Assembly (NCBI GenBank): GCA_949282745.1
Contig: CASDQM010000055.1
Coordinates: 1 to 64,000 of the forward strand
Length of the DNA: 64,000 nt
Reading direction: 5' to 3'
Source of the DNA: an uncultured Sutterella sp.
GTDB lineage: Bacteria; Pseudomonadota; Gammaproteobacteria; Burkholderiales; Burkholderiaceae_F
Numbering within the stretch: position 1 is the stretch's first letter; each line of letters starts with the position of its first letter. Positions 20,950 through 42,625 of the stretch are shown one piece after another. The notes below the pieces were generated by a model. That model saw only the letters and a program-made list of their open reading frames with translations, did no database searches and was not told the origin of the DNA. The position numbers were made by a program, and so were the translations under genes.

Positions 20950-22488
20950 TCAGGCGGCCGTCTTCTTGCCGCGCAGGAAGTGGAGCCCCGAGGTAATGAC
21001 GAGGAGCAGCGCAACCGAAGTCCCGAGCGAGAGCCAGAGATTCGCGTCCGAAAGCCCCGCAACGAGGTAGCCCACGAAGGCGCAGAAGGCGACGAGCAGA
21101 CTGTAGGGTAGCTGCGTCGACACGTGCTCCATGTGATTGCACCCCGCCCCGGCCGACGACAGAATCGTCGTGTCCGAAATGGGCGAACAGTGGTCACCGA
21201 AGACCGAACCCGCAAGAGTCGCCGAGAGACCCACGATCGTGAGCGTCGGATCGATCGCCGCCACAACGGGCACGACGATCGGAATCAGAATCCCGAAGGT
21301 GCCCCAGGCCGTCCCCGTCGAGAAGGAGAGGAAGGCGGCGATGAGGAAGATCGCGGCCGGGAGGAAGACCGAGAAGTCGGCGCCGCCCGAGGTCACGAGC
21401 GACTGCACGAAGAGCGGCGTCTGCAGGAGATCGCGGCACACGCCCGAAAGCGTCCAGGCGAGAACCAGAATGATGTTCGCCGGAAGCATGAGCTTCATCC
21501 CTTCGACGAGCCCCGCCATGAAGTCCGAGAACGGCACGAGACCGCGCGGAACGTACATGACGAAGGCGACGACGAGCGCGCCGAACGAGGCCCAGACGAG
21601 CGAAGGCGAAGCCGAGCAGTTGCCGAGCGCAGCCTGGAAGGAGTGGAACTTCGGATCGTCGCCCCAGTAGCCGCCCGTGTACATGAGAGCGAGCACGGCA
21701 AAGACGATGAGCGAGAGAATCGGCACGAGCATGTCGAGGAGCTTCCCGCGGGGATTGGCCTTCGGAGGCTCGGCATGTCCCGCGACGCTGCCCTCTTCGG
21801 CGGCGCCCGAGAGAGCGCGCTCTTCGGACTTCGCCATGGGACCGAAGTCGAAGTTCGTGAGGGCGATGAAGAAAATCATCAGGATCGAGAGGAGCGCGTA
21901 GAAGTTCCACGGAATGGTCGCGATGAAGGCGGCCATGTCGCTCTCGAAGACGCTGTTGTCCTTCAGGGACGAACCCACGGCGGCGGCCCAGGAGGACACC
22001 GGCGCGATGATGCACACCGGCGCCGCGGTCGAGTCGATGATGTAGGCGAGCTTCGCACGCGAGACGCGGTAGTTGTCGCAGACCGGGCGCATGACGGTGC
22101 CCACCGTCAGGCAGTTGAAGTAGTCGTCGATGAAGATGAGGATCCCGAGGCCGCTCGTCGCGAGAAGCGAGCTGCGGCGGCCCTTGATCTTCGAGACGGC
22201 CCACTTGCCGTAGGCCTTCGTGCCGCCCGACATGGCGACCACGTAGACGAGGGCGCCGAGGAGCGAGCAGAAGATCAGGATGTTGAAGTCCACCTTGTTG
22301 CCCATGGTCGTGAACGCGCTCTCGAGCGTTCCCATGAGGACGTTCCCGTCGGTGCCGATCGTGTAGATGAGCGTCCCCGTGAGGATGCCGATCAAGAGCG
22401 ACGAGAGCACCTCCTTCGTCGTGAGCGCAAGCGCAATGGCCACGATCGGAGGAATGATGGAAAGCCAGCCGGCTTCGTAGGGTTGCAT
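20950..22488 (-). CDS. NhaC-family Na+/H+ antiporter or related exchanger
   Basis: A 512-residue polytopic membrane protein of the NhaC/ArsB-like antiporter group. It starts with PPIVAIALALTTKEVLSSLLIGIL and has family-type segments such as ILIFIDDYFNCLTVGTVMRPVCD, STAAPVCIIAPVSSWAAAVG and FGDHCSPISDTTILSSAGAGC. The central loop (about 225-245) is charged and cytosolic. Family members exchange Na+ for H+ or act as amino-acid or organic-acid exchangers, so the substrate is not settled. GGGGA lies 9 bases before the ATG. It is the last protein gene of the accessory block before the RNA repeats. Confidence 0.85.
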   Translation of the reverse strand: MQPYEAGWLSIIPPIVAIALALTTKEVLSSLLIGILTGTLIYTIGTDGNVLMGTLESAFTTMGNKVDFNILIFCSLLGALVYVVAMSGGTKAYGKWAVSKIKGRRSSLLATSGLGILIFIDDYFNCLTVGTVMRPVCDNYRVSRAKLAYIIDSTAAPVCIIAPVSSWAAAVGSSLKDNSVFESDMAAFIATIPWNFYALLSILMIFFIALTNFDFGPMAKSEERALSGAAEEGSVAGHAEPPKANPRGKLLDMLVPILSLIVFAVLALMYTGGYWGDDPKFHSFQAALGNCSASPSLVWASFGALVVAFVMYVPRGLVPFSDFMAGLVEGMKLMLPANIILVLAWTLSGVCRDLLQTPLFVQSLVTSGGADFSVFLPAAIFLIAAFLSFSTGTAWGTFGILIPIVVPVVAAIDPTLTIVGLSATLAGSVFGDHCSPISDTTILSSAGAGCNHMEHVSTQLPYSLLVAFCAFVGYLVAGLSDANLWLSLGTSVALLLVITSGLHFLRGKKTAA

Positions 22489-22691
22489 TGTTGTATTCCC
22501 CTGGTTCGGGAAGGCGCCCGACGCGACGGAGCGCCCTCTTCCGTTGTTCTCTGAGAAGGGTTTGGATTGGAAAGAGGCAACAGTTTAGCAGTAAGAGAGA
22601 AATTTCGTTTTTTGTGCGGCGCGCCAAAGAAAATGAACTCCTTTTACTTGATGCGCGTCAACTGTCGTACGGAATTTCTCGCCCACTTGGT

Positions 22692-22716
22692 TCGACATAA
22701 AAAGGCCATATGTCGA
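22692..22716. promoter_or_regulatory. Palindromic operator upstream of RNA copy 1
   Basis: TCGACATA (22692-22699) and TATGTCGA (22709-22716) are perfect 8-bp inverted repeats with a 9-base spacer. The same arms with a partly different spacer precede RNA copy 2. It lies about 100 bases upstream of the predicted start of transcription, so activation or looping is more likely than simple promoter occlusion. The binding protein is unknown. Confidence 0.7.
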
Positions 22717-22812
22717 CCTTTTTTTTAGCTAACACATTCATTTACATGTGATTTTGAAAAATTTTCCGTCGTTTCCCAACACAAAACTTTTTCAACGTGG
22801 TACAGTACTCCT

Positions 22813-22996
22813 CGTTGTGGTTGCGGTGGTTCTCACGAGGCCTGAGCAAAACTACGACGGTCGCTGTTGGGAGTCCATTTTTCGGTTCAAGAGAACCGGG
22901 AAGCCGAAACGAGTGACTGCTCCGGGTCGCCACGCACCCACAAAGCCCCTTGATCGGGCAGTCAAACGCAGGGATGTCGCAAGACGTCCCTTTTTT
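22813..22996 (+). ncRNA. Structured small RNA, tandem copy 1 (unassigned family)
   Basis: An extended -10 (TGG then TACAGT, 22798-22806) predicts a start near 22813. The RNA can fold into a closing helix P1 (22815-22829 with 22930-22943), P2 (CCTGAGC 22841-22847 with GCTCCGG 22919-22925, one mismatch), P3 (GTCGCT 22860-22865 with AGTGAC 22912-22917) and a P4 hairpin (CGGTTC-AAGA-GAACCG, 22883-22898). A GCCC/GGGC hairpin (22945-22959) and an intrinsic terminator GGGATGTC-GCAA-GACGTCCC plus six T (22971-22996) follow. About 184 nt in all. Between 22797 and 22943 it differs from copy 2 at only 4 of 147 positions, whereas flanks diverge. I do not recognise the family. Size and rod-like shape recall 6S RNA, but its usual landmarks are not convincing. 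No gene follows on the plus strand, so it is probably a trans-acting or regulatory RNA rather than a riboswitch. Confidence 0.75.
22971..22996 (+). terminator. Terminator of RNA copy 1
   Basis: GGGATGTC, GNRA loop GCAA, GACGTCCC (one G-U pair) and TTTTTT. The same stem and loop end copy 2. Confidence 0.9.
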
Positions 22997-23118
22997 ATTC
23001 TCCTTTTTCCTCAGGCGAGACAGAACGCCGTACCACGGCTCGCCTCCAACGGACATAAACGCCGTCCGAATGAAACGCGAAACGGTTCTGAGCCGTTGCG
23101 GAACGAACGGCCTCTCCG

Positions 23119-23217
23119 GATGACGGTCTCGACTTCGAACGTGCGGCACGGACGTTTCACCGTCGCCGCGGTGCTCTACCCCGCGGCCAAGTTCATGGTG
23201 CGCGGGCTGTGTAAGTG
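23119..23217 (+). other. Possible small ORF or gene remnant between the RNA copies
   Basis: An ATG frame of 32 codons starting MTVSTSNVRHGRFT and ending VAAVLYPAAKFMVRGLCK. Nearly every third codon position is G or C, as in real genes of this genome, unlike the surrounding AT-rich sequence. No good ribosome site is visible. It could be the tail of a decayed gene (for example a transposase) or a small amphipathic protein. The reverse strand also has an open frame here, so the evidence is weak. Confidence 0.2.
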
Positions 23218-23362
23218 ATTGGAAAATGCCTGGAGAACGGACGACGAAAAAGAGAGGCTCCTTCGTCCGAGAAACATCATTCTCCATTATACGCCAACCG
23301 CAATAAAAGAATTTGCATCGAAAAAGAATCCCCGAAGACTCCCCCGTCCCCGCACGTCTCGA

Positions 23363-23387
23363 TCGACATAAAAATACGATATGTCGA
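23363..23387. promoter_or_regulatory. Palindromic operator upstream of RNA copy 2
   Basis: TCGACATA (23363-23370) and TATGTCGA (23380-23387), spacer 9 bases. The arms are identical to the operator at copy 1 although most of the spacer and the bases just downstream differ, which argues that the arms are under selection. About 96 bases upstream of the predicted RNA start. Confidence 0.7.
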
Positions 23388-23482
23388 CACGATTTCGGCT
23401 AACACATTCATTTACATGCGTTTTTGAAAAATTTTCACCCCTTTTCCCACACCAATGCTCTTTGGCGTGGTACAGTACTCCT

Positions 23483-23669
23483 CGTTGTGGTTGCGGTGGT
23501 TCTCACGAGGCCTGAGCAAAGCTACGACGGTCGCTGTTGGGAGTCCATTTTTCGGTTCAAGTGAGCCGGGAAGCCGAAACGAGTGACAGCTCCGGGTCGC
23601 CACGCACCCACAAAGCCCCCGTTTGCGGGGGAGTACGTTGCAGGGATGTCGCAAGACGTCCTTTTTTTT
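23483..23669 (+). ncRNA. Structured small RNA, tandem copy 2 (unassigned family)
   Basis: Same architecture as copy 1 at +670: extended -10 TGG-TACAGT (23468-23476), P1 (23485-23499 with 23600-23613), P2, P3, P4 and terminator. Substitutions keep the folding: the P4 arms are CGGTTC/GAGCCG here (an A to G change turning U-A into U-G). The variable hairpin after P1 is CCCCC-GTTTGC-GGGGG instead of GCCC...GGGC, so different sequence forms the same element. The terminator is GGATGTC-GCAA-GACGTCC plus eight T (to 23669). Downstream lies only the 3' end of hflX on the opposite strand, about 100 bases away, so the RNA is free-standing. Function unknown. Confidence 0.75.
23644..23669 (+). terminator. 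Terminator of RNA copy 2
   Basis: GGATGTC, GCAA, GACGTCC and eight T. Stem and loop match those of copy 1 apart from the outermost pair. Confidence 0.88.
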
Positions 23670-23767
23670 ATTGCCCATTTATCCTGTCCCTCAAGGAAGA
23701 AACGGGATAACGCAAAGCGGCCCGAGGAAATTCCTGCGGACCGCTTTTTCGTTTTCACTTCGACGGT

Positions 23768-24982
23768 TCAGGCGTACCAGTCGTGCGTTGTGCCCTGAAG
23801 CGCGATGCGCGGATCGTCCTCGTCGATTTCCCAGTCTTCGAGGGGACGAGGTTCGTTGGGGTTCTCCTCGCGCCAACGGCCGGCGAATTCGCCGATCGCC
23901 GAGCGAAGGAGATCGAGCCCCGCGCCCGTGAGCGCCGAAACCATCACCGCCTTGGGCGTGCCGTCAGGGTTGCGGACGATCTCGGGTTCGAGCGGCGTGG
24001 TGTCGATCTTGTTGTAGACGAGAATCACCGGAATCTTGTCGGCGTGGATTTCTTCGAGAACCTTGTTCACTTCCCGAATCTGATCCTCGCGCACGACGGA
24101 CCCGGCGTCGACCACGTGAAGAAGAAGGTCGGCGTGCACCGTTTCGTCGAGCGTCGACTTGAAGGCTTCGACGAGCTGGTGCGGCAGTCCCCGGATGAAA
24201 CCCACCGTGTCGCTCATCACGACCGTTTCCTCGTCGCTGATCCAACAGCGCCGCGCCGTCGTGTCAAGCGTCGCGAAGAGCTGGTCGGCGGCGTAGGACT
24301 TCGCGCGCGTGAGCTGATTGAAGAGCGTCGACTTCCCGGCGTTCGTGTAGCCCACGAGCGAAACCGTCAGACGATCGCCCCGCTCGCGCGCACGGCGCTG
24401 CGTGCCGCGCTGGCGCTCGAGCTTCTTGAGCTGTTCGCGAAGCTGCTTCATGCGAACGCCGATCATGCGGCGGTCGAGTTCGATCTGCTTTTCGCCCGGG
24501 CCCCCGGTCTTGCCGAGGCCGCCTCTCTGACGCTCCAGGTGCGTCCACCCGCGCACGAGACGGGTCGAGAGGTGTTCGAGCTGCGCGAGCTCCACCTGCA
24601 GACGCCCTTCGCGGCTCTTCGCGCGGGCGCGGAAGATGTCGAGAATGAGCTGCGTGCGGTCGAGCACGGGGAGGTTGACGGCGCGCTCGATGTTGCGCTG
24701 CTGCGCGGCCGAGAGCGCGATGTCGAAGACGAGGCAGTCGGCCTTGGCCTCCTTGGCGAGCTGTCCGAGTTCCTCGATCTTCCCCGCCCCGAGGAAGGTG
24801 GCGGGATCGGGTTTGGCGCGCTTGGCCTGCATGAGTCCGACGGGCTCGAGCCCGCGCGAGGTCACGAGAAGGCGCAGTTCGTCGGCCGAGTCGGGAAAGA
24901 AGGTTCTCCCGAGCACCACGGTCACAAGAAAAGCGCGCGACGATTCCTCGCCGCGCGTTTCGTCAATCTGAAAGACGCTCAG
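23768..24982 (-). CDS. hflX: HflX, ribosome-associated GTPase (apparent CTG start)
   Basis: A 404-residue GTPase that binds and splits stalled or heat-damaged 70S ribosomes. Motifs: the HflX N-terminal domain with FLGAGKIEELG, the linker RGGLGKTGGPGEKQIELDRR, G1 GYTNAGKS, G3 DTVGFI and G4 NKID. The first ATG/GTG/TTG in frame is GTG 24925, but family-like sequence (FQIDETRGEESSRAFLV) continues upstream of it to an in-frame stop inside hfq. The only well-placed start is CTG at 24982-24980. AGGAG lies exactly 7 bases before it and overlaps the end of hfq, whose stop is one base away. The start is therefore inferred to be CUG. It follows hfq as in relatives, but hflK-hflC are missing from the usual downstream position. 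Confidence 0.93.
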   Translation of the reverse strand: MSVFQIDETRGEESSRAFLVTVVLGRTFFPDSADELRLLVTSRGLEPVGLMQAKRAKPDPATFLGAGKIEELGQLAKEAKADCLVFDIALSAAQQRNIERAVNLPVLDRTQLILDIFRARAKSREGRLQVELAQLEHLSTRLVRGWTHLERQRGGLGKTGGPGEKQIELDRRMIGVRMKQLREQLKKLERQRGTQRRARERGDRLTVSLVGYTNAGKSTLFNQLTRAKSYAADQLFATLDTTARRCWISDEETVVMSDTVGFIRGLPHQLVEAFKSTLDETVHADLLLHVVDAGSVVREDQIREVNKVLEEIHADKIPVILVYNKIDTTPLEPEIVRNPDGTPKAVMVSALTGAGLDLLRSAIGEFAGRWREENPNEPRPLEDWEIDEDDPRIALQGTTHDWYA

Positions 24983-24983
24983 C

Positions 24984-25220
24984 TTAGTTCTCCTGAGAAC
25001 CGCTCGTCATGGTGACGGAGCGGGTCGGAACGACGGTGCTGATGGCATGCTTGTAAACCATCTGGGTCACCGTGTTGCGAAGCAAAATCACGTACTGGTC
25101 GTACGATTCGATCTGTCCCTGAAGCTTGATCCCGTTGACGAGGTAAATCGAAACGGGAACGCGTTCCTTACGAAGGATGTTGAGGAAGGGATCCTGAAGA
25201 AGCTGACCTTTGTTAGCCAT
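24984..25220 (-). CDS. hfq: Hfq RNA chaperone
   Basis: 78-residue Sm-like hexameric RNA chaperone that pairs small RNAs with mRNAs. It starts [30 protein letters not shown] and has the Sm2 motif [10 protein letters not shown]. It lacks the long C-terminal tail of E. coli Hfq, as is usual in betaproteobacteria. ATG 25220 has GGAGAG about 8 bases upstream; the longer frame upstream is untranslated leader. A hairpin lies just before the ribosome site (25237-25259). It is the gene before hflX, separated by a single base. A genuine Hfq implies base-pairing sRNAs, relevant to the RNA pair 1.3 kb away. Confidence 0.97.
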
Positions 25221-42195: not shown

Positions 42196-42272
42196 TGGTA
42201 GGCACGATTGGATTCGAACCAACGACCCCCACCATGTCAAGGTGATGCTCTAACCAACTGAGCTACGTGCCT
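42196..42272 (-). tRNA. tRNA-Val(GAC), copy A
   Basis: 77-nt cloverleaf. Acceptor AGGCACG/CGTGCCT, D-arm GCTCAGTTGGTTAGAGC, anticodon loop TTGACAT (anticodon GAC), T-arm GGTTCGAATCC, CCA encoded. The sequence of copy B is identical. Confidence 0.97.
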
Positions 42273-42377
42273 GTCAAGGTTTGATTATGTCGGAACCCGA
42301 AACCGTTTGGGGCGAAAAATCGCGCAACCTAGGGTTTTTCCGATGCCGGTCCTTTTCCGGCAGGCTTCAAAGGCGAT

Positions 42378-42454
42378 TGGTAGGCACGATTGGATTCGAA
42401 CCAACGACCCCCACCATGTCAAGGTGATGCTCTAACCAACTGAGCTACGTGCCT
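42378..42454 (-). tRNA. tRNA-Val(GAC), copy B
   Basis: Identical in sequence to copy A, with encoded CCA. The spacer to copy A is 105 bases and shows no further gene. Confidence 0.97.
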
Positions 42455-42513
42455 GAACGTCTTTGAACGTGCTTTGCATTCCCCGGCGCCGCACCGCGCC
42501 GCTCTCACAAGAA

Positions 42514-42534
42514 AGGACCGCCCAGGGCGGTCCT
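42514..42534 (-). terminator. Hairpin between tRNA-Val copies B and C
   Basis: AGGACCGCCC (42514-42523) and GGGCGGTCCT (42525-42534), with a short T-rich tail (TTTCTT) on the minus strand. It is a terminator or processing hairpin after copy C, the first transcribed copy. If it terminates, copies A and B need another promoter. Confidence 0.6.
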
Positions 42535-42548
42535 CCCGACGAGAATTC

Positions 42549-42625
42549 TGGTAGGCACAATTGGATTCGAACCAACGACCCCCACCATGTCAAGGTGATG
42601 CTCTAACCAACTGAGCTATGTGCCT
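42549..42625 (-). tRNA. tRNA-Val(GAC), copy C
   Basis: Same as copies A and B except the last acceptor pair: AGGCACA pairs with TGTGCCT instead of AGGCACG with CGTGCCT. This double change keeps the pairing. CCA is encoded. Confidence 0.97.

Follow-up and report, generated by a model that had tools for sequence, protein, structure and literature searches.

The two near-identical units of about 185 nt found in the window (the whole stretch of 64,000 nt that was analysed, from an uncultured Sutterella sp.) are best explained as tandem paralogues of a small non-coding RNA family of Sutterella, which would act in trans by pairing a conserved module with mRNAs. This reading is held tentatively. The regulatory RNA family is probably new and was probably duplicated in the window lineage, and from the sequence comparisons we infer that it is an independent trans-acting regulator working through the module.

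The units are spaced by 670-672 nt and are flanked by the antiporter gene on one side and hflX/hfq on the other (Table 1). Repeat search of the window returned a direct repeat of 227 nt with 90% identity at a spacing of 670, a palindrome pair at 671 and a terminator pair at 672, in agreement with the two near-identical units with a period of 670-671 described in a previous sequence-only reading of this DNA. The core (22797-22943 against 23467-23613) contains exactly the 4 mismatches in 147 positions counted in that reading, at 22851, 22892, 22895 and 22918, and the flanks are more diverged, as was also stated there. Identity between the copies is 0.97 in the core, 0.93 in the terminator, 0.85 in the palindrome, 0.81 in the AT-rich block, 0.61 at 22761-22796 and 0.46 in the pre-terminator hairpin, and it falls to 0.37-0.42 outside the units. 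The window genome has two RNA copies. The gap between them (23000-23360) holds a 32-aa ORF (23120-23215) with no Pfam match, the start of which is also present in the Sutterella genome G009. Elsewhere in the window, three tandem tRNA-Val(GAC) genes were observed at 42196-42625.

Table 1. Position, strand and basis of the features at the twin-unit locus (window numbering).
Feature	Position	Strand	Basis
Palindrome TCGACATA-N9-TATGTCGA, upstream of copy 1, operator-like	22692..22716	none	Repeat and exact-pattern search
AT-rich block, copy 1, kept between copies	22728..22766	+	Sequence comparison
Extended -10 TGG TACAGT, copy 1, without a good -35	22798..22806	+	Promoter reading
RNA copy 1, 183 nt, predicted start (G of GUUGUGG) to end of terminator T-run	22814..22996	+	
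P1 5' arm UUGUGG, copy 1	22815..22820	+	
Conserved module GUCGCUGUUGGGAGUCCAUU, copy 1	22860..22879	+	
Hairpin after module, copy 1	22883..22898	+	
P1 3' arm CCACAA, copy 1	22938..22943	+	
Intrinsic terminator, copy 1	22970..22996	+	Terminator scan
Palindrome TCGACATA-N9-TATGTCGA, upstream of copy 2	23363..23387	none	
AT-rich block, copy 2	23398..23436	+	
Extended -10 TGG TACAGT, copy 2	23468..23476	+	
RNA copy 2, 186 nt, predicted start to end of terminator T-run	23484..23669	+	
Conserved module, copy 2, identical to copy 1	23530..23549	+	
P1 3' arm, copy 2	23608..23613	+	
Intrinsic terminator, copy 2	23642..23669	+	Terminator scan
Na+/H+ antiporter family gene (PF03553), presumably nhaC, divergent from the RNAs	20950..22488	-	Pfam
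HflX-type GTPase gene, which we take to be hflX, convergent with copy 2	23768..24925	-	GTP-bdg_N/M domains
hfq	24984..25220	-	PF17209

The units had been credited with their own promoters, operators and terminators. For the promoter, the extended -10 was confirmed, but the sigma70 promoter scan found none and the -35 is poor in the window copies (2-3 of 6 positions), leaving the extended -10 as the sole promoter element visible there. In lineages other than that of the window, a TTGC-type -35 is readable 17-18 nt upstream. In all 11 promoters examined (G009 pair excluded), the end of the -10 (TATAGT, TACAGT or CATAAT) lies 6-8 nt ahead of GUUGUGG, so the RNA probably starts at the closing helix. 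The palindrome is exact in both copies, as described, and among the 12 Sutterella genomes it recurs only upstream of the two G009 copies; its role as an operator stays putative. Considering the weak -35 together with the upstream palindrome and the AT-rich block, both copies in the window lineage are probably driven by a dedicated activator. No CRP site beyond chance was found in the 11 promoters with the consensus used. With an FNR consensus, copy 1 scored 9/10 (P 0.007 in 33 uncorrected tests) and copy 2 scored 8/10 (P 0.07), with no match in the rest of the 11 promoters, and FNR may control the window-lineage copies. An FNR-like palindrome, TTGATGCGCGTCAA (TTGACGCGCGTCAA in G009), is located at 22648-22661 between the antiporter gene and copy 1, inside the stretch scoring 9/10. 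The terminators were recovered in both copies by the terminator scan, which gave 4 sites versus 2.5 expected from shuffles, the remaining two on the minus strand. By reading, 12 of the 13 RNAs end in a stable hairpin that has at least 5 consecutive T at or beside its stem, with G008 doubtful.

In common with sibling sRNAs, the twins are highly alike RNA genes, each with an extended -10 (poor -35) and a terminator. Neisseria gonorrhoeae, also a betaproteobacterium, carries the sibling sRNAs NgncR_162/163. The PrrF1/PrrF2 sRNAs of Pseudomonas are likewise tandem and near-identical (95% in P. aeruginosa, with predicted Rho-independent terminators, according to PMC4211561), whereas no Fur box and no Rfam match were seen for the Sutterella twins. 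OmrA/OmrB of E. coli are tandem siblings too, of 88 and 82 nt with near identity in the first 21 and last 35 nt (PMC4211561), while the twins are about 185 nt long, share 147 nt and differ in a short pre-terminator hairpin.

A covariance model (R1) made from 8 sequences of six genomes matched 11 of the 12 Sutterella genomes at E<=1, six of which had supplied the model sequences and five had not. Independent matches were obtained in G005, G003, G007 and G008 (E 1.3e-8 to 4.8e-4), and G006 gave a weak one (E 0.36) where GUUGUGG, GYCGYUG, the hairpin and the terminator are readable. G011 (1.7 Mb, 89% complete) had no R1 match. In 55 genomes from other genera of the family, R1 gave two matches, G017 (E 0.70) and G012 (E 0.96), which were discarded as true relatives on being read, as they are at chance level. 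A second model (R2, 12 sequences) was run in a shallow search, with seven first-look candidates per genome, on 399 genomes of the order, two of them Sutterella, and had no match beyond this genus. On present data, the RNA family appears limited to Sutterella. In a blastn search of 150 relatives, G009 gave both copies (98% and 88% identity to copy 2), and G010 and G004 gave fragments. Of 67 family genomes, six carry the 20-nt core when up to 2 mismatches are allowed, and each of the six is a Sutterella. The exact 20-nt core was present in five genome stretches, four from Sutterella (including S. wadsworthensis 2_1_59BFAA) and one a Pseudomonadales contig; this contig and an IMG/VR contig with the exact core were set aside after reading, as the rest of the RNA is missing from both. 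A phage or plasmid origin was also rejected, with no match in the phage or plasmid collection.

Tandem copies occur only in the window species, G009 and G004, and a single copy was found elsewhere. In G004 (S. wadsworthensis), about 300 nt separate the two copies, the first of which has diverged (R1 E 0.33, R2 E 0.035). This first copy (L017:1437-1630) has a module with one change (GCCGCTG), other closing arms and no evident T-run. Taken alone, the identity of tandem copies could reflect recent duplication, as expected if the units were a non-functional, duplicated repetitive or palindromic intergenic element. This explanation is quite improbable, since the differences at 22851 and 22895 distinguish the two copies in the window species as well as in G009 and so place the duplication before the two species separated, and since promoter, module and usually terminator recur, at 1-2 copies per genome, at different sites where the rest has diverged.

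Regarding known families, Rfam 15 at the gathering score found only four tRNAs in the whole window, and at E up to 5 the region 22600-23800 gave only a weak SraG match on the opposite strand. With relatives in 11 of 12 Sutterella genomes (one weak) and some pair changes, the earlier proposal of twin sRNAs outside known families is supported. The same reading named 6S RNA as the main alternative, and here it did not stand. The twins are similar to 6S RNA (RF00013) in size and long closing stem; unlike it, they have no RF00013 match and are located elsewhere in the genome, outside the zapA/EVE (or ygfA) site. At E<=0.1, RF00013 matched 32 of 67 family genomes but none of the 12 Sutterella, and it was likewise unsuccessful in three further genera of the family. 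On the window genome it gave no match at E<=10, and it also misses the Sutterella 6S candidate, indicating that RF00013 misses the 6S RNA of this genus. The candidate (L058:2043-2240, contig C47 of the window genome) fills an RNA-sized gap that separates zapA and an EVE-domain gene. The order zapA-6S-EVE is described for beta- and gamma-proteobacteria in PMC7641849, where 6S RNA is said to be often unannotated in these groups, conceivably through divergence. ZapA was found in 11 of 12 Sutterella genomes, and the candidate is conserved in 7 of the 8 zapA loci aligned (of 11) and aligns with 16 family 6S sequences, from 16 of 17 loci drawn from the 32 RF00013 matches. Since another, 6S-alignable RNA occupies the zapA-EVE gap, the twin RNA was rejected as the Sutterella 6S. 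A second, diverged 6S RNA binding RNA polymerase would agree with the similar size, with the long stem from the predicted start site and with the two 6S copies listed for B. subtilis and L. pneumophila in PMC4211561. It is nevertheless the least probable of the readings considered, given the syntenic 6S candidate, the lack of an RF00013 match in the window genome (from a model that misses the true candidate too) and a module with no counterpart seen in the 6S alignment. Among the records listed by literature searches on Sutterella, feoB-sRNA and sibling sRNAs, none reports this RNA or any small RNA of Sutterella, and the family may be among the 3161 microbiome RNA candidates of PMC8040213.

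The RNA family is placed at different sites across species. In 7 of 11 genomes, it lies 3' of feoB or feoC on the same strand, with FeoC (PF09012) upstream in G002, G003, G006, G007 and G008 and FeoB upstream in G001 and G004; in the other four, it is away from feo. A Na+/H+ antiporter family gene adjoins the RNA in the window and in G005, and by reading also in G009, and in G010 the RNA is found between a cytochrome c3-like gene and a transporter-like gene (no Pfam match at 1e-4). The window copies are close to hfq. The frequent site 3' of feo suggests a link to ferrous iron or anaerobic metabolism. This site and the tandem, near-identical copies of the window would fit a Fur-controlled iron-sparing sRNA pair of the PrrF/RyhB type, which is improbable since the best Fur box match in the 11 promoters was 9-12 of 19 positions, not above shuffles (P 0.12-0.90, with the E. 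coli consensus).

Folding of the full RNA gave z-scores of -2.7 for copy 1 (0/200 shuffles) and -1.9 for copy 2 (9/200). MFE z-scores were negative in all 13 sequences (-1.1 to -3.0), where the G001 sequence ended at the first CCACAA (P2 arm) and thus was without its true P1; the set for MFE folds and unpaired probabilities contained G001 with the correct end. The MFE folds of all 13 sequences contain the closing helix, P1. For the inner part, folding is hardly or not at all better than in shuffles. This agrees with the long closing helix claimed to begin at the predicted transcription start, the remaining fold being uncertain. Helices assigned by hand were counted in 10 lineages (leaving out G004 copy 1, window copy 2 and the G009 pair). 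P1 (UUGUGG/CCACAA) pairs in all ten with one A to G change, and P2 (UGGU/ACCA) has mainly wobble variation on the 3' side and a single two-sided change, in G006. Since the variation in P1 and P2 is mostly off the 5' side, the 5' arms appear to be conserved beyond pairing needs. P3 is paired in all ten by base pairs of differing types, and in the window 2 of its 9 positions are unpaired; the unbiased test of P3 was weak, the observed sum being reached by 45 of 2000 shuffles. A gene coding over the whole RNA was rejected, as no one frame is stop-free across its length in the 13 sequences.

The module is strongly conserved and is formed by GYCGYUG followed by nGG-GARN-CCn, a possible hairpin. The latter reads UUGG-GAGU-CCAU in five lineages (with loop GAAU in G010), AUGG-GAGG-CCAU in G005, GAGG-GAGU-CCUU in G003 and G007, GAGG-GAGC-CCUC in G008 and GCGG-GAGG-CCGC in G006. 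Its closing pair is U-A in 9 and A-U in 3 of the 12 rows of alignment A6, and C-G in G006, a variation that, as aligned, is compensatory change. The core hairpin is part of 7 of the 13 MFE folds, that of copy 1 not among them. The mean unpaired probability of GYCGYUG was 0.08-0.62 over the 13 sequences (0.08 and 0.25 in the window copies), so a mostly unpaired module was not borne out. Between the window copies, the change from U-A to U-G attributed to a P4 stem is seen at 22895, within the hairpin 22883-22898, and the hairpin after P1 is made from different bases, as had been noted, with GCCC/GGGC in one copy and the CCCCC/GGGGG type in the other. Some changes therefore keep pairing, as was claimed, but the window copies alone give little compensatory evidence and their minimum-energy inner folds differ.

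Covariation was evaluated in A6 (12 rows), which was fitted to a model with the structure supplied by hand and with an E cut that excluded G006 and the first G004 copy. The covariation score was reached by 1 of 500 shuffles, percent paired and the number of two-sided-change cells by 4/500 each, and the pair types by 81/500. P1 is invariant in every pair, and one pair is changed on both sides, a number reached by 318/500. A slide of -1 scored 0.099 versus 0.087 in register, and 8 of 12 rows do not form the outer core pair. RNAalifold supported P1 and the core hairpin, and it paired the P2 5' strand GUGG with UCGC of the module and not with the 3' arm. Covariation support for the fold is moderate, and the predicted inner fold varies across species.

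In the preferred account of mRNA pairing, the closed stem would shield the 5' end of the RNA, the inner part would open so that the GYCGYUG strand could pair with target mRNAs, and the adjacent hairpin would be a handle, either structural or for binding a protein. The complement of the module (14 nt, up to 1 mismatch) was found at 20 places in the 12 genomes, 10 of which are the RNA loci themselves, two are in the mutS leader (G000 and G009) and eight are inside long reading frames. Upstream of mutS in the window genome, L112:1501-1514 is complementary to the module in 13 of 14 nt, which occurs in the window species and G009 only. All 12 genomes have a mutS locus, and duplex tests in the 11 RNA-bearing genomes gave shuffle P values of 0.007 (G000), 0.017 (G009), 0.05 (G005) and 0.11-0.89 (others). 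The mutS leader was rejected as a target, since the duplex support is not shared across the 11 genomes, and no conserved target was found through the module complement in the 12 genomes. Against the preferred account count, besides the absence of a conserved target, a module that is not predicted as exposed in every sequence, G011 without a copy found and the four of 11 genomes with the RNA away from feo. As GYCGYUG is not mostly unpaired, mRNA pairing was rated lower, and protein binding and non-function higher.

Protein binding is a possible explanation, in which a protein would recognise the module and the nGG-GARN-CCn hairpin and be sequestered or guided, with no pairing to mRNA. A closing pair that alternates among U-A, A-U and C-G fits the recognition of a structure better than a pairing seed, and the GYCGYUG strand, mostly predicted as paired in the window copies, and the long stem closed at the start site point the same way. 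However, only 7 of the 13 MFE folds contain the hairpin, and there is no candidate for the partner. CsrA, the best-known protein of this type, was not found in any of the 12 Sutterella genomes (PF02599, E<=0.001), and a CsrA decoy of the CsrB/RsmZ type was rejected on this ground. A trans-acting RNA working through the module is rated most likely, with mRNA pairing placed slightly ahead of protein binding.

A genus-specific switching ribonucleoprotein RNA, in which the module would take at least two forms and a protein or a partner RNA would select the form, is rather unlikely. Two forms or more are suggested by the MFE folds, since the hairpin is formed in some species and the module is buried in others. 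For the invariant GUGG of the 5' strand, both the 3' arm and the module UCGC are possible pairing partners. If this switching reading is true, the twins would belong to a new class of regulatory RNA in gut Burkholderiales. If the RNA is expressed, nearly all the Sutterella genomes searched would carry an uncatalogued small-RNA family, and its position beside feo in 7 of 11 genomes is a lead toward iron regulation.
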